DNA of 17,802 nt from Candidatus Hydrogenedentes bacterium CG07_land_8_20_14_0_80_42_17 (GTDB taxonomy: Bacteria > UBA8481): the NCBI GenBank assembly GCA_002780065.1, contig PEWQ01000137.1:3151-20952 (forward strand). The letters are read 5' to 3'. Below are positions 3,450 through 17,712 of the stretch, piece by piece. The notes beneath the pieces are model-generated. The model was not told the DNA's origin and did not search any database. It saw only the letters and a list, made by a program, of their open reading frames with translations. The position numbers and the translations under genes were made by a program. Position 1 is the first letter of the stretch. Each line of letters starts with the position of its first letter.

Positions 3450-3972
3450 AGCGCGCAGGATAGCGTTTTCACTAATCTTTTCTTCTTTTTATCTCGAAGA
3501 TGAATTTGTTAGTAGTGTAGATGACCAGATAGAACTTTTCTATTCGATATTCGGAAACAGGAAAGATAAAGAGACTCAACTTGGCTTTGTGCTGCCCTTT
3601 TCGGAGCAAAGAAACAATAAATCTCAAATACAAAAATATGTTAAGCATCTTGTTGCCGGCGTGATTGCTGAGCGAAAAATGCTTGATGAAAAGATCGAGA
3701 ATGCCGGAGCGAACTGGTCGTTGATTAGGATAGGAAGAATAGAACGTGCTATACTCCGGATGGCGATATTTGAGTTTACGCATCCTGAAGAAGACGGAGT
3801 GATTTTGCCTATTGAGATTGTGATTGACGAAGCTGTTGAATTGGCGAAGATTTATGGAGGAGAGGAAAGTCCTAAATTCGTCAATGGAGTTCTGGATGCT
3901 ATTTACCAGAAGAACATGAGTGAAGTTGTATTGGAAGATAAAGATAAGAAAAATCCGGGTGGCTGTGCATGA
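3436..3972 (+). CDS. nusB: Transcription antitermination protein NusB
   Basis: NusB binds NusE (S10) and the boxA RNA in rRNA leaders to keep polymerase elongating. The N-terminus [16 protein letters not shown] matches the first helix with its basic residues. The C-terminal half has the family signature: RIERAILRMAIFEF, then EIVIDEAVELAKIYGGEES and PKFVNGVLDAIY. At 178 residues it is longer than E. coli NusB (139), because of a divergent middle region (about residues 25-75) and a charged tail after the last helix. Two adjacent ATGs (3436, 3439) can start it, and both overlap the end of ribH. Placement of nusB directly after ribH is a widespread bacterial arrangement and supports the call. Confidence 0.93.
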   Translation: MMRHEARRIAFSLIFSSFYLEDEFVSSVDDQIELFYSIFGNRKDKETQLGFVLPFSEQRNNKSQIQKYVKHLVAGVIAERKMLDEKIENAGANWSLIRIGRIERAILRMAIFEFTHPEEDGVILPIEIVIDEAVELAKIYGGEESPKFVNGVLDAIYQKNMSEVVLEDKDKKNPGGCA

Positions 3973-5984
3973 AAAATAAATTGTCGATAGCGCATTGGAT
4001 TGGAATAACAGCGCTTCTTGCTCTGCTTGTTGCCGGCGGTTTTGTCGTAAAATGGATTTTAACAAATCAAAATAATCTTCAGTCTGGAAATTCTAAGAGC
4101 GGAGTTTCAGAACAATTAACAAAAATAATTTCACCGAATCTTTTAAATATGATTGGGGGCAAGTCGGGAAACGAACCTAGAGAACCGCATAGCGATGCAA
4201 TTGAATCTCTGCTTGCAGGTTCTGAAGAGATTCCTTTGCCTTCTGAAGAAAAGCTTTCAGGACTGTCTGTTCAAACCAGAGAAACATTGCGTTTGAGATA
4301 CAATTTAGGACTTTTAAAGTTTCATCAAAACGATACTCCTTCTGCTATTTCGGCTTTCAAGTCCGTGTTAGATATCGATCCGCAAGGTGCTTATGGAATC
4401 AGAGCGTTCATGCAGATCGGAATAATTTATTCGATGAGTGGAAATTATTCGCTTGCTGAAACTTATTTCAGAAAAGTTGAGGCATTGGATCCTACGAATC
4501 CTTTGGCTGAGCATCATCTCGGAATGTCGATCTATAAAATGGGAAGAATCCAAGAAGCGATTCAGCACCTTGCAAAAGCCGCTACGCTCGATGGCGCCAA
4601 CGTCGGCATTTTGCAGAATTTAGGAAATGCTTATCTCTCTTCAAAAAACTTTGAATCAGCGAAAAAGACATTTCTTCAGGCTTTGGAGATCGATCCGAAC
4701 AATTTTGAGATAAGGTTTAATCTTGGTCTTTGCTACTACAGGATGAATGATCTAGCTTCTGCGGAGGAGCAGTTCGATAAAGCAAGAGCAGGTTTAAGCG
4801 GCGACAATAAAGCCCGTGCAACTGCTTTCCTAGGGATTACAAGATACAACAGAGGATTCTTTGGTGCGGCGGCAAGCGCATTCAAAGAAGCGGCTGAACT
4901 TAGTTCGAGTAATATGGACTACAGGTTCAATGAAGGTGTGGCTCTAGCAAAATCAGGAATGCCGCAGGATGCGGCCATTGCATTTCGCCGAGCGCTCGAA
5001 ATTTCTCCGCGCGATGCGGCGGCATGGTTTGGATTGGGTAGTGCTTATTACATGAACGGTCAGAAGCGAGAATCATTCGATGCATACAATAAAGGTTTAG
5101 AGATCGATACATCTGCTTCTGCTCCCCTTTTCACTACAGGATTTATTTTGATGGAATCCGGAAAAGTGCCTGAGGCTGCTGAACGTTTTAGAAAAGTTGT
5201 GGAACTTGGCGGACAGGACGCGCTTCGCGCTCACGTCAATCTTGGACTTTGCTACGAAGCAATGGGAAGGCTGGAAGATGCCGCAAAAGAATATCGAGCA
5301 GGCGATCCTAAAGACCCCAGAACTTTTTACAATCTAGGACTTATTTTGAGAAAACTTGGAGATAAAAAAGGCGCTGTTGAAGCATTTCTAAAGGCAACGG
5401 AATTGAAGCCGACTGATGCGCGATATGCAGCGGCTCTTGGGGACGCATATTTTGAGGCTGATATGCTTTCCGCTTCTGTCGGCGCTTATGACGCGGCGTT
5501 AAAAAATGGCGGAGATGATTTTGAAATTCTGATAAGGATTGCTCAGCTAGAAGCGAGATTGGAAAAAAATGATCTCGCTCAAGAATTTTCCCAAAGAGCT
5601 ATCAGCACCGCTTTGAACGGCTCTCAGAAGGCCAGAGCATATCTTGTTCAAGGCCTCATTCTGGATCGAAAAGGCGATTTAGATGCGACGCTGAAGGCAT
5701 TCAGGCAGGCAGTTGCGTCCGACCCGAGAAATGCAGATGCATACTATAACCTCGGAGTTGTTGAGGCGAGACTGCGTTCTTATGATTCCGCAGTTGATGC
5801 TTTGAGGGTTGCAATACGATTAAATCCGAATCATGCCGGCGCACACACTCAACTCGGAAATATCTTTGCCGCGAGAGGACTGCGCGAAGAAGCGATACGT
5901 GAATACGAAACAGCGGTAAGAATAGATTCGAGTGCGGTCGAGGCTACTTTTAATTTGAAAGAACTTGCATCCGCTCCAAGATGA
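3969..5984 (+). CDS. Membrane-anchored protein with about 16 TPR repeats
   Basis: The 671-residue product has a short basic N-terminus and one hydrophobic segment (about residues 12-31), then a low-complexity linker to about residue 100. From about 106 to 656 it is a nearly continuous array of 34-residue tetratricopeptide repeats. I count about 16, recognisable by recurring G-x2-Y/A, A-x3-F/Y and (I/L)-x-P positions, for example FNLGLCYYRMNDLASAEEQF and YYNLGVVEARLRSYDSAVDA; the tenth is shortened. No enzymatic domain is present. The hydrophobic segment is probably an uncleaved anchor that places the superhelix in the periplasm, though a signal peptide cannot be excluded. It overlaps nusB by ATGA, so it belongs to the operon. 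TPR arrays are scaffolds for protein complexes; the partner is not evident from the sequence. Confidence 0.85.
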   Translation: MKNKLSIAHWIGITALLALLVAGGFVVKWILTNQNNLQSGNSKSGVSEQLTKIISPNLLNMIGGKSGNEPREPHSDAIESLLAGSEEIPLPSEEKLSGLSVQTRETLRLRYNLGLLKFHQNDTPSAISAFKSVLDIDPQGAYGIRAFMQIGIIYSMSGNYSLAETYFRKVEALDPTNPLAEHHLGMSIYKMGRIQEAIQHLAKAATLDGANVGILQNLGNAYLSSKNFESAKKTFLQALEIDPNNFEIRFNLGLCYYRMNDLASAEEQFDKARAGLSGDNKARATAFLGITRYNRGFFGAAASAFKEAAELSSSNMDYRFNEGVALAKSGMPQDAAIAFRRALEISPRDAAAWFGLGSAYYMNGQKRESFDAYNKGLEIDTSASAPLFTTGFILMESGKVPEAAERFRKVVELGGQDALRAHVNLGLCYEAMGRLEDAAKEYRAGDPKDPRTFYNLGLILRKLGDKKGAVEAFLKATELKPTDARYAAALGDAYFEADMLSASVGAYDAALKNGGDDFEILIRIAQLEARLEKNDLAQEFSQRAISTALNGSQKARAYLVQGLILDRKGDLDATLKAFRQAVASDPRNADAYYNLGVVEARLRSYDSAVDALRVAIRLNPNHAGAHTQLGNIFAARGLREEAIREYETAVRIDSSAVEATFNLKELASAPR

Positions 5985-9227: not shown

Positions 9228-10361
9228 TCACATTCCAATCATGATTCTCAGCCAACGGGGCATTGGACTTCTAATCGAGTTCATTGCCATGAAGGCAATA
9301 ATAAGAGGCATGATCCATGGAATAAAAACTGCAATCTTATGGAACTCAGGGAGGCCTGCGGCGAGTTCGCTAAGTCTTATTGTTGATTGAAGAATGATCA
9401 TGTATAAAAGCGTGCAAACAAGCGCTGATCCTATGGCAAACCCCAATCCTTTTCGCCTTCCAATTCGTGCTCCAATTCCTATGCAAAAAATCGCAATGAA
9501 TGGAATCGAGATTGGAAATGCAAGTTTGGATTGTATTTTTGCTCTTCTAATTTCGATCTCAGTCCGCATTTTATCCAGTGACGGATTAGTTTGAAGAATC
9601 TCTTTCAATTCATAAACCTCTTTGAATAAATCAGAAAGTTTTATTGTTTCTATCGACTTATTCAAAATAATTTTAAGTCCTTGAGACGAAACAGTCAGTT
9701 CGATTGCCTTTGGTGGAGAAATATTTATTGCTTCTGTTCTGTTTGAACTGAGCCATCCTATTCCATCGGCATATTTAATTCGGTCATAGAAGCTGATATT
9801 CATAACTGACGAGCCTGCAGTGTCTGGGAAAATTATAGAAACTGAATCCATTATTTTTTCATCAGGAGAAAAGTAATCTGCAAAGATATATTTTTCGTTT
9901 TCAAAAAAAACAAAATCGTATATTTCAATCTTTGGTGGAGCTTTTTTCTGAATCAGAACCTTTCGAATGAAATCCGCTTTATCTGAATACTCAGGAACAA
10001 TAAATTCAGCTCCGAGCATCAGCAGCAACGAAATAGAAACTGTAAAAGCGACAATTCCTTTGCCGTAATCCAGAAGAGAAATTCCTCCGGCTTGAGACGC
10101 AATAATTTCTGAGAGGTGAGCTCTAGAGGCAATAACAAATATTGTAGAAAGAATTATGGCGACTGGAGCTGATACATAGGCTAAAAATGGTATTCTAGCC
10201 ATGATGTAATTAAAAAGATTTTGAAGTGATTCGGTAGAAAGATCGTAATTGTTTTTCAATTCAAAGAGCTCTACAAGAACAAAAAAGCCTACGAAGAATA
10301 CGAAAAATGAGAAGAAAGAAAACAAATAACTGGATAGTACGAATCGATGAATTATTTTCAT
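9228..10361 (-). CDS. lptG: LPS export ABC transporter permease, LptG-like
   Basis: One of the paired inner-membrane permeases of the Lpt machine that extracts lipopolysaccharide and passes it across the periplasm. The 377-residue product has three N-terminal membrane segments (about 11-33, 60-80, 103-123), a periplasmic beta-jellyroll (about 135-245), and three C-terminal segments (about 280-298, 305-325, 340-362). The segment IASQAGGISLLDYGKG after TM2 is the expected coupling-helix region, and IGARIGRRKGLGFAIG matches the family's TM4-TM5 turn. The start was placed at 10361, where ATGA overlaps the lptF stop. The frame continues upstream within lptF, but that part encodes no recognisable LptG sequence; ATG 10376 is an alternative. 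F/G assignment rests on gene order, since the two are homologues. Confidence 0.88.
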   Translation of the reverse strand: MKIIHRFVLSSYLFSFFSFFVFFVGFFVLVELFELKNNYDLSTESLQNLFNYIMARIPFLAYVSAPVAIILSTIFVIASRAHLSEIIASQAGGISLLDYGKGIVAFTVSISLLLMLGAEFIVPEYSDKADFIRKVLIQKKAPPKIEIYDFVFFENEKYIFADYFSPDEKIMDSVSIIFPDTAGSSVMNISFYDRIKYADGIGWLSSNRTEAINISPPKAIELTVSSQGLKIILNKSIETIKLSDLFKEVYELKEILQTNPSLDKMRTEIEIRRAKIQSKLAFPISIPFIAIFCIGIGARIGRRKGLGFAIGSALVCTLLYMIILQSTIRLSELAAGLPEFHKIAVFIPWIMPLIIAFMAMNSIRSPMPRWLRIMIGM

Positions 10362-11410
10362 CTTCTCATAGTCCATAGGCACAGCGATAGAAATGATATA
10401 ATTAAATGCGGCAGAAGGAGCCAGATAAGCTGATAGCCATATTTGTCCACCATTGCGTCGGATAGAAAATAAATCAGCCAATAAAGAAAATATAAGAGCG
10501 CAGAATAAAGTACTGCTCCGCGCGCATGCTCTTTTCGCCCGGCAAAATGTGTGGATGCAACCAAAGGAATAGAAGTAATGATAAATATAGGAATTATCAG
10601 AGCTGAAAGAATTCTTCGCCATAATTCTGCCTGATATTCTTTTTCGTTTGAAGAAATAAGAAAAGATGCAGGTCTCCGTTTTGGATCCGGAGAAGCATCT
10701 GACGGAAGAGGAATACGAAGTAAATAATTTTCAAACTTCAAAATTCTTCCGCTATTCAGCGGCGAAAGATTTCTAATCGAACCGTCAATAAGGTTTAGAA
10801 TAATGGTATTTCCACTGATCGACCATGATCCTTTTGATGAAAGAATAAGCAAACGTTCATTTCCTTTTGAAAGAGGAGACGGAATGATGGAAAAAAGTTT
10901 TTGGAATTTTTGAGCTTCCGGAGAAATATCTCCTATAGCAATATGCCTGCCCGATATTCTTTCGACTATTCCTGGCTTCAATCCTTTTATCGGATCTATG
11001 CCTACTCCAAAACCTGCACTATCGAATTGAACATAAGCTTTAGGCATCAAAACGAGATTATTGAATAAAGCCACTGCGAGAAGAATCAGTGAAAAAAGAA
11101 TCGGGAATAATGCAAGACGAATGCGGCTTGCGCCGGCCGCCAGCATTGCGCAAATTTCCGAACCGGCAGTCAATCTGCCGAATGCAAGAAGAGTTCCGGC
11201 AATGGCAGCTATTGGAACAGCATGAAATAGTATTATTGGAAACATCCAGCCAATAAGAGAAAAAATTTGTGATAAATCCAATGAACGAGTGACAGCAAGC
11301 TCTATTATGCGATAAAATCGATTGAGTATGAGAACACCTCCGATTATACCGAGGGTAGACAGGAACCCATGGAGTACGAATCGAGCTATGTATCTATCGA
11401 GTGTCTTCAT
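10358..11410 (-). CDS. lptF: LPS export ABC transporter permease, LptF-like
   Basis: Partner permease of LptG in the LptB2FG lipopolysaccharide extraction complex. The 350-residue product begins MKTLDRYIARF, typical of the family. It has membrane segments around residues 12-30, 55-78 and 100-120, then the jellyroll (about 125-245), and three more at about 265-285, 298-317 and 327-346. The coupling-helix motif FGRLTAGSEICAMLAAGASR (77-96) is a clear LptF/LptG signature, and ARGAVLYSALLYFLYW matches the TM5 region. The start at ATG 11410 is chosen for the family N-terminus; an in-frame TTG at 11452 would add 14 residues. No Shine-Dalgarno is visible. lptG follows with a 4-base overlap, and the divergent SprA-like gene starts 20 bases away. 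Confidence 0.88.
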   Translation of the reverse strand: MKTLDRYIARFVLHGFLSTLGIIGGVLILNRFYRIIELAVTRSLDLSQIFSLIGWMFPIILFHAVPIAAIAGTLLAFGRLTAGSEICAMLAAGASRIRLALFPILFSLILLAVALFNNLVLMPKAYVQFDSAGFGVGIDPIKGLKPGIVERISGRHIAIGDISPEAQKFQKLFSIIPSPLSKGNERLLILSSKGSWSISGNTIILNLIDGSIRNLSPLNSGRILKFENYLLRIPLPSDASPDPKRRPASFLISSNEKEYQAELWRRILSALIIPIFIITSIPLVASTHFAGRKEHARGAVLYSALLYFLYWLIYFLSDAMVDKYGYQLIWLLLPHLIISFLSLCLWTMRR

Positions 11411-11418
11411 GGATAAAG

Positions 11419-11446
11419 CGTATACGGCAAATGGAAAAGATGACAA
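11419..11446 (-). promoter_or_regulatory. Putative lptF promoter within the divergent gap
   Basis: Read on the minus strand, TTGTCA (complement of 11441-11446) and TATACG (complement of 11419-11424) are 16 bases apart. The -10 box lies eight bases before the lptF ATG, again implying a nearly leaderless message. The -10 is part of an 8-base palindrome, CGTATACG (11419-11426), in the middle of the 20-base gap, so TATACG also reads on the plus strand, but I find no matching -35 for that direction. Consensus matching by eye only. Confidence 0.28.
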
Positions 11447-14400
11447 GACCAAGTTTTAGTTTTTTAAAAATTAATATTGCTATTATTTTATTATTTATTT
11501 TTGCATTTAATGTCTCAGCCGATACAAATGTTGCGTGGAGTGAAACTGCTCAGGGCTGGGAAGATCTAGCAAAAAAATATCAAGACGAAGGGAATATCTC
11601 CGCCGCACGCGAAGCGTGGACTGAAGCGGCAATAGCTTGGGAGCGAGAGGGAAAGAGCAAGCGAATCGAAGCAGTTGGCGATTTGCAAAGAGTCAATGAA
11701 ATTGAGACTGCAATTGATGGTATCACTCAGGAGCTTTCCGCGTGGCGGCGAAATGCAGTTAGCTGGAGAGAAGCGGCTCTGGCATTAAGACGCGAGGGCA
11801 AAGATTCAGCGGCTGAACAAGCATTTTCCAGGTCTTCCTCCGCATTGCAAAGAATCATCGAATTGGAAACTCAGCTTGATCAATTGACTTTGCGACTTAA
11901 CGAAAAGCGAAAGACTTTGATCGATATGCCGATTTCTGATGAATTAAAATCAGACTTGGTATCGCGCTGGGCAGAGGTGGCTCAATCATGGGAACTAACT
12001 GCTCGAGCGTGGGAACGGACAGGAGAGCCGGGAAAAGCCAGAATAGCAAGAATGAAAGCAGATGAAGTGAGATCGAGAATTCGTGAGATTCGTCCCGATC
12101 TTAATGAAATGTGGTTCAAAGCAAAAACTTATCCTCCGGACGAAGATGCAGTTCAATTGAAGCCAACCGTTTCTGCCGATACAATGCCTTTAGCTCTAAA
12201 TACTCCTGAACAGCCCGTTGTAGTTAATCCAATTCCGGGTTATGTGCCTCCTGATATTCCTCCTCGACCGGTTCTGCCTCCGAATTGGCTTTTGAATTCT
12301 GATGAACTCGAAGATTTGAAAAGCGCCGGAGTATGGAGACAGACCGCCGAGGTATGGCGCAAAACTTCATTCAGCAGTTCTGCATCAGGCAAAATCAATG
12401 AAGCTCGACGCGCAGGAGAAAATTCCATATCCGCCGCTGATAAAGCTTTGCAATTGGAATCAAAGGTTCGCTCTTCTTATGCAAAGAGGGAATTGGAAAT
12501 AAGAAATACTCTTGCTAAAGCATTCGGTGAGGAACCTCGAACTGAGACAGATATTTTGAATGCTCTTGATGCAGGTCCGATACTTTCTCCCGAATTGCCG
12601 CAACTTTCCGGAGATGCTGTCGCTTTAGCGCCGCCGCCAATTCCCGGAAAGGACACGTCAAATCAAGTGCGCCGAGGATTTTTCGATCTCGAAATCGGCG
12701 GGCCTTTACCTTCTACGTTGACGATACGAGGTCGAAAAGTTGTCGATGTCAATTACAGAGTAACTCACTATACAAACACAGATGCAACTCGCGACGCCGG
12801 AAACACTCAGTCCAGCTTCAATCTGAATCAGGAACTACAGGTCGAGGTTCTCGGCAGAGTAGGTCGTGAGGATCAGGATCATATCAACGTGAATATTCGT
12901 TATGATGATACTCAGCGCGGAGTGAACTCTGTTAACAATCGTTCAATCGGAGTGGATTTTGTCGGAGTGCCGCACAAAGCAAGCTGGGGAACTTATCAAT
13001 ATGATTTCGAGTTTGGAGACATTTCGGTTTCATTGCCGGGAAGCGAATTTGCTTTCTACAATAAGAGTCTGTTCGGAGCAAAAGGGATCTTCAATGTCAC
13101 CGATTTGAATTTCGGGTGGCTAAAGGCTGATCGAGTTTCATTGCAATTAGTCGGCTCTCAAACAAAAGGTGTGTCAGCCTCGAAAGAGTTTACTCTGACC
13201 GGTGAGCGAGTGCCTCCGGAAGAATTTCAAGACAAGCAGTTTGCTCAAGACAGATACTATTTGATAGAGCCTGATGTCACTCAACTGCCAATAAAAGATG
13301 TGAAGGTTTATCGCGACGACGGAAACGGAGCGAACGATCAGGGCACAGTCCAGTTTATTGCCGCTGGAGCAGGTCCTACAGCCGGCTACAGCTATAGTGG
13401 AAATTGGAATGAACTTATTGCGGGGCAAGATTTTGTATTGAACCAGACAACAGGTGAATTAGAAATCATGGTAGGAGTCGGGCCGAATGATTACATTGCC
13501 GTTCAATATTCCGGACAGGCGGTCAGTTACGGAAGCGTTATACCAAATCGATTGATTCGCGTTTCTACAGATACGCCTGTAGCTAGAGAAGTGTTTCGCA
13601 TTCATGAATTGAGAAATCGTTACAAGCTTTCCAGGCAAAGAATAAAAAAGAACGACCCGAATTTAATATTCGAGATTCGTGACAAATTAGGATTCAAGCA
13701 GACTACAGTAAACGGCGTTCCTACGACGTATCTTAAACTTTTCGGTTTCGACCGTGACGGCGACGATAAAGTTGATATCGAATTAATTGATTACGATTTC
13801 GGAGTAATAAAAGCCTTGGACACTGCTCCGTTTGCAAAAACAGGCAATGCCGATATCGATAATTCCGCAATCTATACCAGCGACAATTTAACTGATATTG
13901 ATTACAAATACATAATTCATATTGAGTATTCTTCGGATCAGCCTCAAGAGATTTTTACGCTTGGTTTCGACATAATTAAGAATTCGGATATCGTCACGGT
14001 TGACGGTCAGAAGATGACTAGAGATGCAGATTACTTCATCGATTATGAAGCAGGAATAATTACATTCCTTAATAAAGCCGTATTGAAACCTGACTCAAAG
14101 ATTCGAGTGGATTATGAGTATTTGCCTTTTGGCGGGCAATTTGAGCGGACGCTGATGGGAACACGGTTGGATGTTGAGGTAAGTCCCCGATTGAGATTTG
14201 GAACGACACTTCTTTACGACATGTCGGCAGATGCTCAAGTTGTTCCAAATATATTTGAAGATAAACCTGATAAGAATGCTATTGTCGAGCTGGATGCTCA
14301 ACTTCAGGCGGCATCATTAATTTTGGATTGGCTGGATCGCGGAGACGAGCATTCGTTCGTTCGAAAATTGAAAGATAATTTTACATTTAATATTGGCGGA

Positions 14401-17400
14401 GAATGGGCGTGGACATCACATACTCCGAATACTTTCGGCGCCGCAGTGGTAGAAGATTTCGAAGCGATAGAGGATATAGTCTCAGCCGGATTCGGAAGAA
14501 CTTCATGGCAACCGGCTTCTGCACCTCTTTCTGACACTGCCGGACTTTTTACCGGTGGAGCTCAAAATTCGAGAGGCATTTATTCCATTTCGCTTAAAGA
14601 TAATTTCGGGCATAAGACAACTAGTGCGCTGTCCAGCGAAGAAAAACAATCTTCACTGCAGCTGGATCTTTCTTTCGACGCAACTGAAACTTGGGTTGCA
14701 ATACGCCAATCGCTTTCGCCTGCCGCAATCAATTTTGAAAATATGACGTCTATGGAATTTTATGTTTCAGGCTTACCGGCAACTGTCAAAACTTACGTCG
14801 ATGTCGGAGTAATCTCCGAGGATGCAGATGGAGACGGAATACTTGATAGTGAAGATAACGGGCTGGACGGCGTTGCGAATACAGGAGACGTCGGAGAAAA
14901 CAACGGAGTATTGAATACTAACGAAGACAATGGAATAAACTTCAATCATCCTGTTAGAGGTATTTTAAATTTTGGCTCCAACGACGGAACAATGACCACC
15001 GAAGACATGAACAATAATTTTAAGCTGGATCAAGCTGAAGCATTTTATCGGCTTGGTGAACTTAACACTTCGGCTGACATTGAGCGTAAGGTCTTTACAG
15101 GCTCCGATGGAACTCTTTGGACATTATTCCGAGTTCCTTGGCGCTCGCGAAATCCAGTCGGCGCCGCAAACACAAACGTAATCAAACATGTCAGGCTTGT
15201 CTTCGAGCGAACTCCCGGTCAAGATTCTTCGGCATCTTTTTTCATGGACCAGCTTTCATTCAGAGGAAATAGGTTTACAGGTTCCTCTTCTGATTCGAAG
15301 ATTGTTTTGATGCCTCGCAACAACGAGAACGACGCGAATTATACGATCCCTGCGAGAACCGAATTGAAAGACGATCCTGATAAGAAAAAAGAACAATCAT
15401 TGGGAAGCAGATGGAGCTTGGGAGTTAATGATTCTTCTACGGTAAAACAGAGTTTTGCAAAACCGATCAACTTAAGTGATTACCGACGTCTTTCGTTTTT
15501 TATGGCAGGCGATGCGAAGAGTGAAACTTTTTCTTTGATTTTGGCTTCTGATGATAAAAATTATATCGAGATCAGCAAACGAGTCACTTTGGGTTCTGAC
15601 ATAGGAGGCCTTGCCGGAGCGGCTCAAACTCCAATTTGGGAACGTATCGATGTGGAATTGGATCCGATTCGTCAGGCAGTAATAGCAAATGTGCTCGGAG
15701 CAATGGACACTGAATTAGTTTTAACTCCATCCTCAATTTATACGATACATATTTTCGGCGAGCCGTGGTTATTGAGAAGCCCTTCCGTTTCGCAAATCAA
15801 TCAGATTTGGTTGAGAGTAAGTTCGACTGCCGCTGATTCCGGAGAGATTTGGCTCGACGATATTTATTCAGCCGAACCCATTGTTCAGACGGCAACTGCT
15901 CAGAAGGCATCGTTCTCATCGGGTTGGAGCGATTTGTGGTCGCTGTCCGGAACATGGAGAGATGTTCCCGGAAAATATCGAGGTGTCGGAATAATAAACG
16001 ATCCTCAAGTTGGAGCAAATGTTGAGCGCTCCGCAACATCGAAGAGTCTTACAGCAACTTTGAATCTGCACAGATTATTACCTGCGGCATGGCAAATTCT
16101 TCTTCCTCTTACAGGAAGCTGGTCGCAAACGGCCACGATAGTGGACCCGGATCGAGTTGAAAATGTGCTTGCTTCGGACCTCGGAAAATTAGCATCCGAA
16201 CAGCAAACTTACGGAGCAACTTTACAAGTTTGGAAATTGCCGTCTATCAGCGTTAATTACGGTTTGACTACTGCGGAACGCGATTATCGGCTCGAGGATT
16301 ATTCGAATCGCAATTCAACTTTTAATGCAAATACCGCTTATTCTTTTTCATTTCCAAGAAAACTTTTCGGCATAATTCCTACGGGAAAATCTCTGTATGT
16401 AAATTCGGCTTACTCTTTCGCTCAGGCGCGTTCTAAAACAGTTAATGCTCCGTCTTCAGGACTAAATTCAATTGTCACTTCAAGGCGTGATAATCAAAAT
16501 GTAAACGCGAGCGTGAATTCAAAGCCCATTGAACCTTTGAGTCTCTCTTATGATTACAATATGGGTTGGTTGGAACAGCAAACATTAATCGCTTCCGAAG
16601 CATGGAAAGGAATTACGAATAGGAGTCATCGAGCAAATGCCTCTTTAAATCTTCCGACTAAGTTTGGTATTTCGCCTGGTATTTCGACTTCAGCAAATTA
16701 TTCTGAATTATTTAATCGAGCGACATTTGGAGGAAGGAACAAAGATATTAATCTTGGTGGAAACTTTAATATCACTGTCGGACTCAACCCCTCAGCATGG
16801 ACCAGACTGCTTTCATTCTTGTCGATAAGATATAGCTATAATCTCTCTTCGGTAGCGACTTACAGGGCTCTGAATACCGGCACAACTTTGAGCGATGTCC
16901 TTGGCGATTATGTTGGAGAGCGGCTCTTTCCTTGGGGGTCCGCGAAGAGAGTTGGATTTGGAGCAGAAGGTGTTACTGCCAACAGATCAAGCGCCTCTAC
17001 AAATAATTCGCATAACTTTAGCGGAGGCATCAAGACATTTAGCTGGTTGCAAACATCATATTCGGCAAATATTACCAGAAATGAAGTTGCTTCGCTTTCA
17101 ACTATTTCGATTACCGACGGAATAATGGGCGCATTAAATATGCGAATGGATTATATGCAGGCATTTCCTAATTCATTCATAAAGTTCAGGTCTTCATACA
17201 TCACAGGCGCAATAAGTTACGGCAGAACAGAAAATGCGGCGAGCAGAACAAATACTTTTTCGCCTTCGATGAATTGGAATGCGCAATGGACAGACGCGCT
17301 CAATACAACTTTCTCTATGGCTTACAATCAATCAACATCGATTACTTCGAATGCACCTTCGAATCGAAGTATTGCAAAATCACTCACACCATCGATGAAT

Positions 17401-17712
17401 TTTACTTATTTCTTCGATATTGCAAAGATACCGGCGATGGTATCTCTGCCTGGAATAGGAAAAGTTTCAGACTTGAATCGCAGAGTCCAACTGAGCGGTG
17501 GAATTAATACTACGTTCAGACAAAATGAGGTTGGAGGAAAGAAAACTTCTGAACAGAATAATTACGGTCTGAATCTTTCGCTCGGATACAGAATATCGTC
17601 TAATCTTGATTTTACCGCATCGAGCTCAGGCTCTTGGCTTCAGGATAAACTCGAAACAAAGAACGACTTCTTTACTGTAGGCGGCGGAGCGAGAGTCGAA
17701 TGGAGATTTTGA
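11431..17712 (+). CDS. sprA: SprA-family giant outer-membrane beta-barrel protein with Trp-repeat helical N-terminus
   Basis: A 2093-residue secreted protein related to SprA, the very large outer-membrane channel of type IX secretion (known family role; function here is inferred). The signal peptide spans the first 30 residues (ending FNVSA). Next is a helical region with Trp-rich repeats (nt 11536-12456) and Pro-rich linkers. The barrel region starts near nt 12680. SprA-like blocks are VSLPGSEFAFYNKSLFGAKG (from nt 13027), RYYLIEPDVTQLPIKDVKVY, DYFIDYEAGIITFLNKAVLK (nt 14029-14088), SGEIWLDDIYSAEP (near 15840) and LLPAAWQILLPLTGSWSQ (near 16078). The C-terminus ends VEWRF, an outer-membrane-barrel final strand. 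Length is somewhat below F. johnsoniae SprA (about 2400). ATG 11440, three codons later, or GTG 11401 are alternative starts. No other T9SS gene is in view. Confidence 0.82.
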   Translation: MEKMTRPSFSFLKINIAIILLFIFAFNVSADTNVAWSETAQGWEDLAKKYQDEGNISAAREAWTEAAIAWEREGKSKRIEAVGDLQRVNEIETAIDGITQELSAWRRNAVSWREAALALRREGKDSAAEQAFSRSSSALQRIIELETQLDQLTLRLNEKRKTLIDMPISDELKSDLVSRWAEVAQSWELTARAWERTGEPGKARIARMKADEVRSRIREIRPDLNEMWFKAKTYPPDEDAVQLKPTVSADTMPLALNTPEQPVVVNPIPGYVPPDIPPRPVLPPNWLLNSDELEDLKSAGVWRQTAEVWRKTSFSSSASGKINEARRAGENSISAADKALQLESKVRSSYAKRELEIRNTLAKAFGEEPRTETDILNALDAGPILSPELPQLSGDAVALAPPPIPGKDTSNQVRRGFFDLEIGGPLPSTLTIRGRKVVDVNYRVTHYTNTDATRDAGNTQSSFNLNQELQVEVLGRVGREDQDHINVNIRYDDTQRGVNSVNNRSIGVDFVGVPHKASWGTYQYDFEFGDISVSLPGSEFAFYNKSLFGAKGIFNVTDLNFGWLKADRVSLQLVGSQTKGVSASKEFTLTGERVPPEEFQDKQFAQDRYYLIEPDVTQLPIKDVKVYRDDGNGANDQGTVQFIAAGAGPTAGYSYSGNWNELIAGQDFVLNQTTGELEIMVGVGPNDYIAVQYSGQAVSYGSVIPNRLIRVSTDTPVAREVFRIHELRNRYKLSRQRIKKNDPNLIFEIRDKLGFKQTTVNGVPTTYLKLFGFDRDGDDKVDIELIDYDFGVIKALDTAPFAKTGNADIDNSAIYTSDNLTDIDYKYIIHIEYSSDQPQEIFTLGFDIIKNSDIVTVDGQKMTRDADYFIDYEAGIITFLNKAVLKPDSKIRVDYEYLPFGGQFERTLMGTRLDVEVSPRLRFGTTLLYDMSADAQVVPNIFEDKPDKNAIVELDAQLQAASLILDWLDRGDEHSFVRKLKDNFTFNIGGEWAWTSHTPNTFGAAVVEDFEAIEDIVSAGFGRTSWQPASAPLSDTAGLFTGGAQNSRGIYSISLKDNFGHKTTSALSSEEKQSSLQLDLSFDATETWVAIRQSLSPAAINFENMTSMEFYVSGLPATVKTYVDVGVISEDADGDGILDSEDNGLDGVANTGDVGENNGVLNTNEDNGINFNHPVRGILNFGSNDGTMTTEDMNNNFKLDQAEAFYRLGELNTSADIERKVFTGSDGTLWTLFRVPWRSRNPVGAANTNVIKHVRLVFERTPGQDSSASFFMDQLSFRGNRFTGSSSDSKIVLMPRNNENDANYTIPARTELKDDPDKKKEQSLGSRWSLGVNDSSTVKQSFAKPINLSDYRRLSFFMAGDAKSETFSLILASDDKNYIEISKRVTLGSDIGGLAGAAQTPIWERIDVELDPIRQAVIANVLGAMDTELVLTPSSIYTIHIFGEPWLLRSPSVSQINQIWLRVSSTAADSGEIWLDDIYSAEPIVQTATAQKASFSSGWSDLWSLSGTWRDVPGKYRGVGIINDPQVGANVERSATSKSLTATLNLHRLLPAAWQILLPLTGSWSQTATIVDPDRVENVLASDLGKLASEQQTYGATLQVWKLPSISVNYGLTTAERDYRLEDYSNRNSTFNANTAYSFSFPRKLFGIIPTGKSLYVNSAYSFAQARSKTVNAPSSGLNSIVTSRRDNQNVNASVNSKPIEPLSLSYDYNMGWLEQQTLIASEAWKGITNRSHRANASLNLPTKFGISPGISTSANYSELFNRATFGGRNKDINLGGNFNITVGLNPSAWTRLLSFLSIRYSYNLSSVATYRALNTGTTLSDVLGDYVGERLFPWGSAKRVGFGAEGVTANRSSASTNNSHNFSGGIKTFSWLQTSYSANITRNEVASLSTISITDGIMGALNMRMDYMQAFPNSFIKFRSSYITGAISYGRTENAASRTNTFSPSMNWNAQWTDALNTTFSMAYNQSTSITSNAPSNRSIAKSLTPSMNFTYFFDIAKIPAMVSLPGIGKVSDLNRRVQLSGGINTTFRQNEVGGKKTSEQNNYGLNLSLGYRISSNLDFTASSSGSWLQDKLETKNDFFTVGGGARVEWRF
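11536..12456 (+). repeat. Degenerate Trp-heptad helical repeats encoded in the SprA-like gene
   Basis: Four degenerate helical-hairpin units of about 40 residues begin at nt 11536, 11743, 11968 and 12334. Each starts with W-x3-A-x2-W: WSETAQGW, WRRNAVSW, WAEVAQSW and WRQTAEVW. In three of the units a glycine-containing turn and an alanine-rich second helix follow. The same spacing occurs twice more (WTEAAIAW at nt 11617 and WELTARAW at nt 11989), giving six matches. The fourth unit is separated by a Pro-rich linker (about nt 12130-12290). The layout resembles TPR-type hairpins, but the paired tryptophans are not the usual TPR consensus. Confidence 0.7.

Follow-up and report, generated by a model that had tools for sequence, protein, structure and literature searches.

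The SprA-like gene and its genomic surroundings

The window, by which we mean the whole stretch of 17,802 nucleotides analysed here, carries a long forward-strand open reading frame of the SprA/Sov type, upstream of which two genes of the LptF/LptG family are encoded on the opposite strand (Table 1). This divergent arrangement is found both in the source genome (G000; window 9228-11452) and in a second genome, G001 (L034, 13177-15410), and the 5' ends of the SprA-like ORF and of the nearer lpt ORF, as listed, overlap. As the hydrophobic stretch following the likely ATG ends in VSA before DTN, the mature protein probably begins near residue 41. No lipobox Cys was seen by eye at this apparent cleavage site, the signal appearing instead to be of the Sec type.

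Table 1. Features of the SprA-like locus, in window positions, and contigs on which a cargo-tail gene is followed by a PorV-family gene.
Feature	Position	Strand	Basis or remark
Second LptF/LptG family gene	9228-10622	-	PF03739
LptF/LptG family gene next to and divergent from the SprA-like gene	10358-11452	-	PF03739
SprA/Sov-like ORF	11401-17712	+	2103 aa from GTG; likely true start ATG 11431 or 11440
Putative signal peptide, residues 14-40, ending ...FNVSA before DTN	11440-11520	+	Read by eye from the sequence
Predicted hairpin 1, residues 45-91; W4 = Trp53	11533-11673	+	Motifs 11536-11559 and 11617-11640; AF2 H5-22/H26-51; TPR_2 match in register
Predicted hairpin 2, residues 95-174; W4 = Trp122	11683-11922	+	Motif 11743-11766; AF2 H55-91/H95-134
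Predicted hairpin 3, residues 180-230; W4 = Trp197	11938-12090	+	Overlapping motifs 11968-11991 and 11989-12012; AF2 H140-167/H170-190; register
Pro-rich low-confidence linker, residues 249-296	12145-12288	+	Sequence; pLDDT < 50 over 249-279
Predicted hairpin 4, residues 300-374; W4 = Trp319	12298-12522	+	Motif 12334-12357; AF2 H260-288/H292-334; register
SprA-like barrel region, residues 425-2103, ending ...VEWRF	12673-17709	+	TIGR04189; homologues in other genomes
Cargo-tail/PorV contigs, G000	C171, C169, C202, C144, C3, C149, C145		
Cargo-tail/PorV contigs, G001	C106, C96, C130, C68, C6, C42, C133, C110		
Cargo-tail/PorV contigs, G030	C44, C18, C10, C28, C30, C40		

The barrel core of the window protein matches the SprA/Sov family TIGR04189 with an E value of 1.7e-38 and 131.6 bits, a significant score which does not reach the curated cut-off of 200. 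TIGR04189 also matches the SprA-like proteins of G001 and G030, and a protein of G031 (L006), which scores 427.9 bits and is over the cut-off, aligns with the window protein by BLASTP at 190 bits. The Pfam family SprA_N is clear in the G031 protein, weak in the G001 protein and was not seen in a Pfam search of the window protein, and a PDB sequence search with the full window protein returned no significant match. Because the TIGR04189 match is significant though below the cut-off, because the G031 protein provides a link and because SprA_N occurs in the G001 and G031 proteins, the window protein is, on sequence comparison, a distant SprA homologue, here termed SprA-like. It resembles SprA/Sov, a large outer-membrane translocon, in the match of its barrel core, and differs in falling below the curated cut-off and in adding an N-terminal helical domain.

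Components of a type IX secretion system (T9SS) are encoded elsewhere in these genomes. T9SS cargo tails (TIGR04183) number 11 in G000, most over cut-off, and 13 in G001, and PorV-family matches (NF033709) number 14, again most over cut-off, and 16, respectively. Often, a PorV-family gene directly follows a type A cargo-tail gene (TIGR04183) with the same orientation, mostly at a distance of 75-254 bp, the counts being 7/11 in G000, 8/12 in G001 and 7/27 in G030 (Table 1). Cognate pairing with PorP/SprF has been described for type B cargo (PMC12618676); the cargo-adjacent arrangement is alike, with the difference that here PorV accompanies type A cargo. Searching for Peptidase_C25, the family of the PorU sortase, detected none in G000, G001 and G030, drafts which are 87-94% complete, and gave strong matches in G031 and G010. 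One Skp is encoded in G000 and one in G001. A GldL/GldM family search gave no match in G000, a result not used as absence since the controls were silent too. Within the window itself, positions 3969-5984 encode a 671 aa protein with an N-terminal hydrophobic segment and approximately 16 tetratricopeptide repeats (TPRs; TPR_2, E 4.9e-76), whose gene adjoins nusB and a polysaccharide deacetylase gene.

Tryptophan motifs and predicted hairpins

The preliminary description of this DNA had drawn attention to six exact copies of the motif W-x3-A-x2-W near the N-terminus of the SprA-like protein, and an exact scan recovers all six, at residues 46, 73, 115, 190, 197 and 312 of the ORF (motif starts at 11536, 11617, 11743, 11968, 11989 and 12334 in the window). 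They span residues 46-319 of the 2,103-residue protein, and the remaining ~1,730 residues contain no copy, despite the presence of 30 Trp. The enrichment is far beyond that given by composition, 20,000 shuffles of the domain producing a mean of 0.059 motifs and a maximum of 2. The relative in G001 also has six motifs, five of which occupy equivalent positions, the motif at residue 73 being the one not kept; the two domains are 38% identical and 12/13 Trp are conserved.

This relative also bears on the trivial explanation that the fusion of domain and barrel is an artefact of assembly or binning, which might be suspected since G000 is a fragmented draft of 207 contigs, 87% complete. G001 is an independent draft from another family of the same order and contains the same fusion in a single open frame of 2,100 codons, with the domain diverged to the extent given above and with the same lptF/G neighbours. 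An artefact is therefore largely refuted and we regard it as extremely improbable. The fusion of a repeated two-helix domain bearing paired Trp to a SprA-like barrel, as originally described, is thus observed in two genomes.

AlphaFold2 (AF2) modelling of the whole domain with the two sequences gave hairpins at approximately residues 50-82, 86-175, 180-230 and 300-374 (pLDDT 72.8, pTM 0.31), and modelling of block 41-243 alone gave the first three at 45-91, 95-174 and 180-230 (pLDDT 82.2, pTM 0.47). Given these pTM values, the packing of the hairpins against one another is uncertain. The second hairpin is predicted to protrude as a finger built from helices of ~37 and ~40 residues, with pLDDT blocks mostly of 92-97. 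Prediction thus yields repeated two-helix hairpins carrying Trp pairs, as had been anticipated.

The correspondence between motifs and repeat units is not one to one. Six separate units, each starting with a motif as first proposed, were rejected in favour of four hairpins because the motifs at 190 and 197 overlap in one helix and that at 73, which is not kept in G001, falls in the second helix of unit 1. Similarly, of the ~40-residue units originally envisaged, the repeated two-helix organization holds and the uniform length does not, the hairpins measuring ~47, 80, 51 and 75 residues. The range 11536-12456 first assigned to the domain fell short at its end, as the helical domain reaches approximately residue 374 (window ~12522). 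The Pro-rich linker described before the last unit is present and coincides with the predicted low-confidence segment (Table 1).

Relationship to tetratricopeptide repeats

A common register is evident in the four units of the window protein, with W4, G15 and A20 present in 4/4 and A8 in 3/4. Together with the G001 relative, in which W4 is located at residues 70, 139, 214 and 334, eight units align without gaps, in which W(-3), W4 and G15 are present in 8/8, A8 in 7/8 and A20 in 6/8, the second helix being Ala-rich. The first Trp of each pair precedes W4 by one heptad, on a lengthened helix A, in agreement with the spacing first noted. The repeat is also borne out by self-alignment, the best gapless 41-residue self-matches scoring 64 in the window domain and 77 in that of G001, compared with shuffle maxima of 26±6 and 32±6, respectively, which never exceeded 54 in 300 shuffles. 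Pairings of the four units with one another belong to the high-scoring gapless self-matches, which lie well over the shuffles.

Comparison with known TPRs extends this register. The eight-unit profile was compared with a TPR profile built on the 16 repeats found in the plain TPR protein encoded at window 3969-5981, and the two aligned without gaps over 29 columns in the same register, with a probability of 73% and P of 3.1e-5. Pfam TPR_2 matched residues 50-76 of unit 1 in register (E 1.5e-4, 22.1 bits, below the cut-off of 27); Pfam TPR searches of single units were mostly negative, no other unit being matched, and a PDB sequence search with the domain gave only a weak match to a designed TPR. 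An HMM built from one TPR protein of the window was uninformative for the window domain as a single sequence, its 2.6 bits being equalled by 45/2000 shuffles, and placed the G001 domain above all shuffles. In Foldseek searches with both AF2 models, consensus TPR proteins headed the lists, which included OGT and MamA, at E values of only ~0.01 and with low TM-scores.

Closer structure comparison (VIA) gave different pictures for the two models. The full-domain model was matched mostly through long hairpin 2, by unrelated hairpins; because this generic element filled the lists, the matches were not taken as a relationship, and families missing from them were not counted as excluded. The model of residues 41-243 aligned over model residues 2-203 with the TPR or TPR-like proteins NASP, Sec17, LGN, KLC1, BF2334, MamA and Rap, with ~70-100 residues aligned in each case, including NASP (Z 11.0, 96 residues, 3.4 Å), BF2334 (Z 10.6, 99 residues, 3.2 Å) and Sec17 (Z 10.5, 92 residues, 3.0 Å). 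As such Z-scores are common for helical models, this supports TPR packing of the hairpins without proving it. The aligned lengths correspond to about half of the range, suggesting that hairpin 2 is probably skipped and may protrude as a finger between hairpins 1 and 3. The likeness to the interrupted TPR of NASP (7v1k) and to alpha-SNAP/Sec17 (1qqe) thus extends over the whole modelled range, at ~90-100 residues, without a sequence family relation, and the common arrangement may be one that helical arrays adopt in general.

An alternative is that the domain consists of coiled-coil hairpins with a PspA/ESCRT-III-like shape, which act as a spacer or stalk and form no TPR ligand-binding scaffold. 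The long hairpin alone does match those of Snf7, Vipp1/PspA, EmrA and LipC (Z 9.7-12.9), and of the two further domain matches in 386 genomes, both at marginal E values, one is a PspA-like coiled-coil protein (L075). The other (L074) is a TPR-containing response regulator, however; the register, the turn at G15 and the TPR profile match hold for all four units, and TPR proteins predominate in the Foldseek list when hairpins 1-3 are modelled alone. We therefore consider a coiled-coil spacer rather unlikely.

From sequence and predicted structure, we favour the term degenerate TPR for the domain, its helix A being longer by one heptad and one of its hairpins long and protruding; it does not appear to represent a new fold. 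The motif connects an extra heptad with TPR position 4, which makes it a TPR variant and not a Trp pairing of unknown kind. The domain has in common with TPR_2 and its relatives a helix-turn-helix unit in which W4, A8, G15 and A20 keep register; the differences are the additional heptad with Trp at -3, the sub-cut-off scores and the lack of contiguity, the TPR-like units being separated by long helices and a linker. Hairpins 1-3 of the model (pTM 0.47) resemble TPR proteins. Thus, the TPR-like layout recognized in the preliminary description is supported by the register, the profile alignment and Foldseek, and its suggestion of an undescribed domain is not, in view of the same register and profile match, the sub-cut-off TPR_2 hit and the TPR proteins heading the Foldseek lists.

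Distribution and proposed role of the domain

SprA-like proteins were detected in 79/386 genomes (E <= 1e-20, query residues 424-1100). A contig search with an alignment as the query identified 35 SprA-like loci, mostly of Elusimicrobia, and none with the single window protein as the query. Strong E values for the N-terminal domain were confined to G000 and G001, which are the only two genomes of their phylum in the sample, and the domain is known from these two sequences only. It is absent from all other SprA-like relatives whose N-termini were read, these mostly having 50-220 residues of unrelated sequence before the barrel. In the nearest of the others, G030 and G312, the first ~130 residues of the SprA-like ORFs (L084 and L085) contain one conserved short segment, GEFGLAAMNYFRAYHLYDAL. 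Pfam made no TPR call on this segment; one possible reading is that of a lone TPR-like hairpin, which may be akin to the repeat unit described here, and the domain is possibly a lineage-specific expansion from a single unit of this type. Among the sequences searched, and in comparison with part of the literature, namely open-licence papers, the fusion of a degenerate TPR to a SprA-like translocon in this lineage appears new.

In Flavobacterium, the extended SprA N-terminus is periplasmic and lies inside a SkpA trimer, and its base, together with the pore rim, is contacted by the TPR lipoprotein SprE, one of whose 13 TPRs is interrupted by helical fingers pointing across the pore; the SprE/SkpA dish is required for substrate release (PMC10994853). 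In Porphyromonas, PorW is a direct binding partner of Sov and forms a bridge to PorN (PMC8754138). Since SprE and PorW sit at the SprA/Sov N-terminus or pore, a TPR-like finger domain would be rightly placed to perform part of this work in cis. We propose, with a probability of roughly 0.6, that the ~330-residue lineage-specific N-terminal domain, composed of four degenerate TPR-type hairpins, is a built-in periplasmic scaffold which binds a T9SS partner in a manner analogous to SprE/PorW. Once the protein has been exported by Sec and cleaved near residue 40, its N-terminal domain would lie in the periplasm under the pore, by analogy with the Flavobacterium SprA N-terminus, with the conserved Trp pair (-3 and 4) packing on each hairpin, hairpin 2 drawn out as a long protruding finger and the Pro-rich tether leading to hairpin 4 and then to the barrel. 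The partner could be Skp or a PorV-side, hub or motor component, and the domain may thereby do in cis something like what SprE/PorW do in trans. The periplasmic docking originally suggested fits the position of the SprA N-terminus in PMC10994853.

The analogy has limits. A TPR-type helical scaffold at SprA/Sov, with one TPR interrupted by a finger, is common to both, the periplasmic face being presumed here; SprE, with its 13 TPRs, exists as a lipoprotein of its own, whereas the present domain has four degenerate hairpins, no lipobox Cys and is itself the N-terminus of the SprA-like protein, not a separate outer-membrane lipoprotein. A stronger version, in which the domain is a fused replacement for SprE/PorW, making the pore-hub link part of the pore protein in a T9SS apparently lacking PorU and with cargo paired with dedicated PorV, seems doubtful. 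The domain might otherwise serve as a periplasmic gate or cargo chaperone over the pore of its own barrel, with no docking site for another T9SS part, in keeping with its direct tethering to the barrel by a flexible Pro-rich linker and a disordered segment and with the single Skp in the genome, which leaves room for added chaperoning in cis. However, separate Plug or PorV proteins fill the pore in characterised systems (PMC8754138, PMC10994853), and PorV genes are numerous here; we consider a gate or chaperone improbable.

On the docking scaffold reading, a helical scaffold that well-studied bacteria supply separately would be built into the T9SS pore of a poorly known lineage. The fusion could reveal how the pore is connected with its partners, and bears on its coupling to energised periplasmic parts. 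A natural TPR-like/SprA fusion would be 'Rosetta stone' evidence for a TPR module at the SprA N-terminus, and would provide a self-contained construct for structural study from a lineage far from Bacteroidota.
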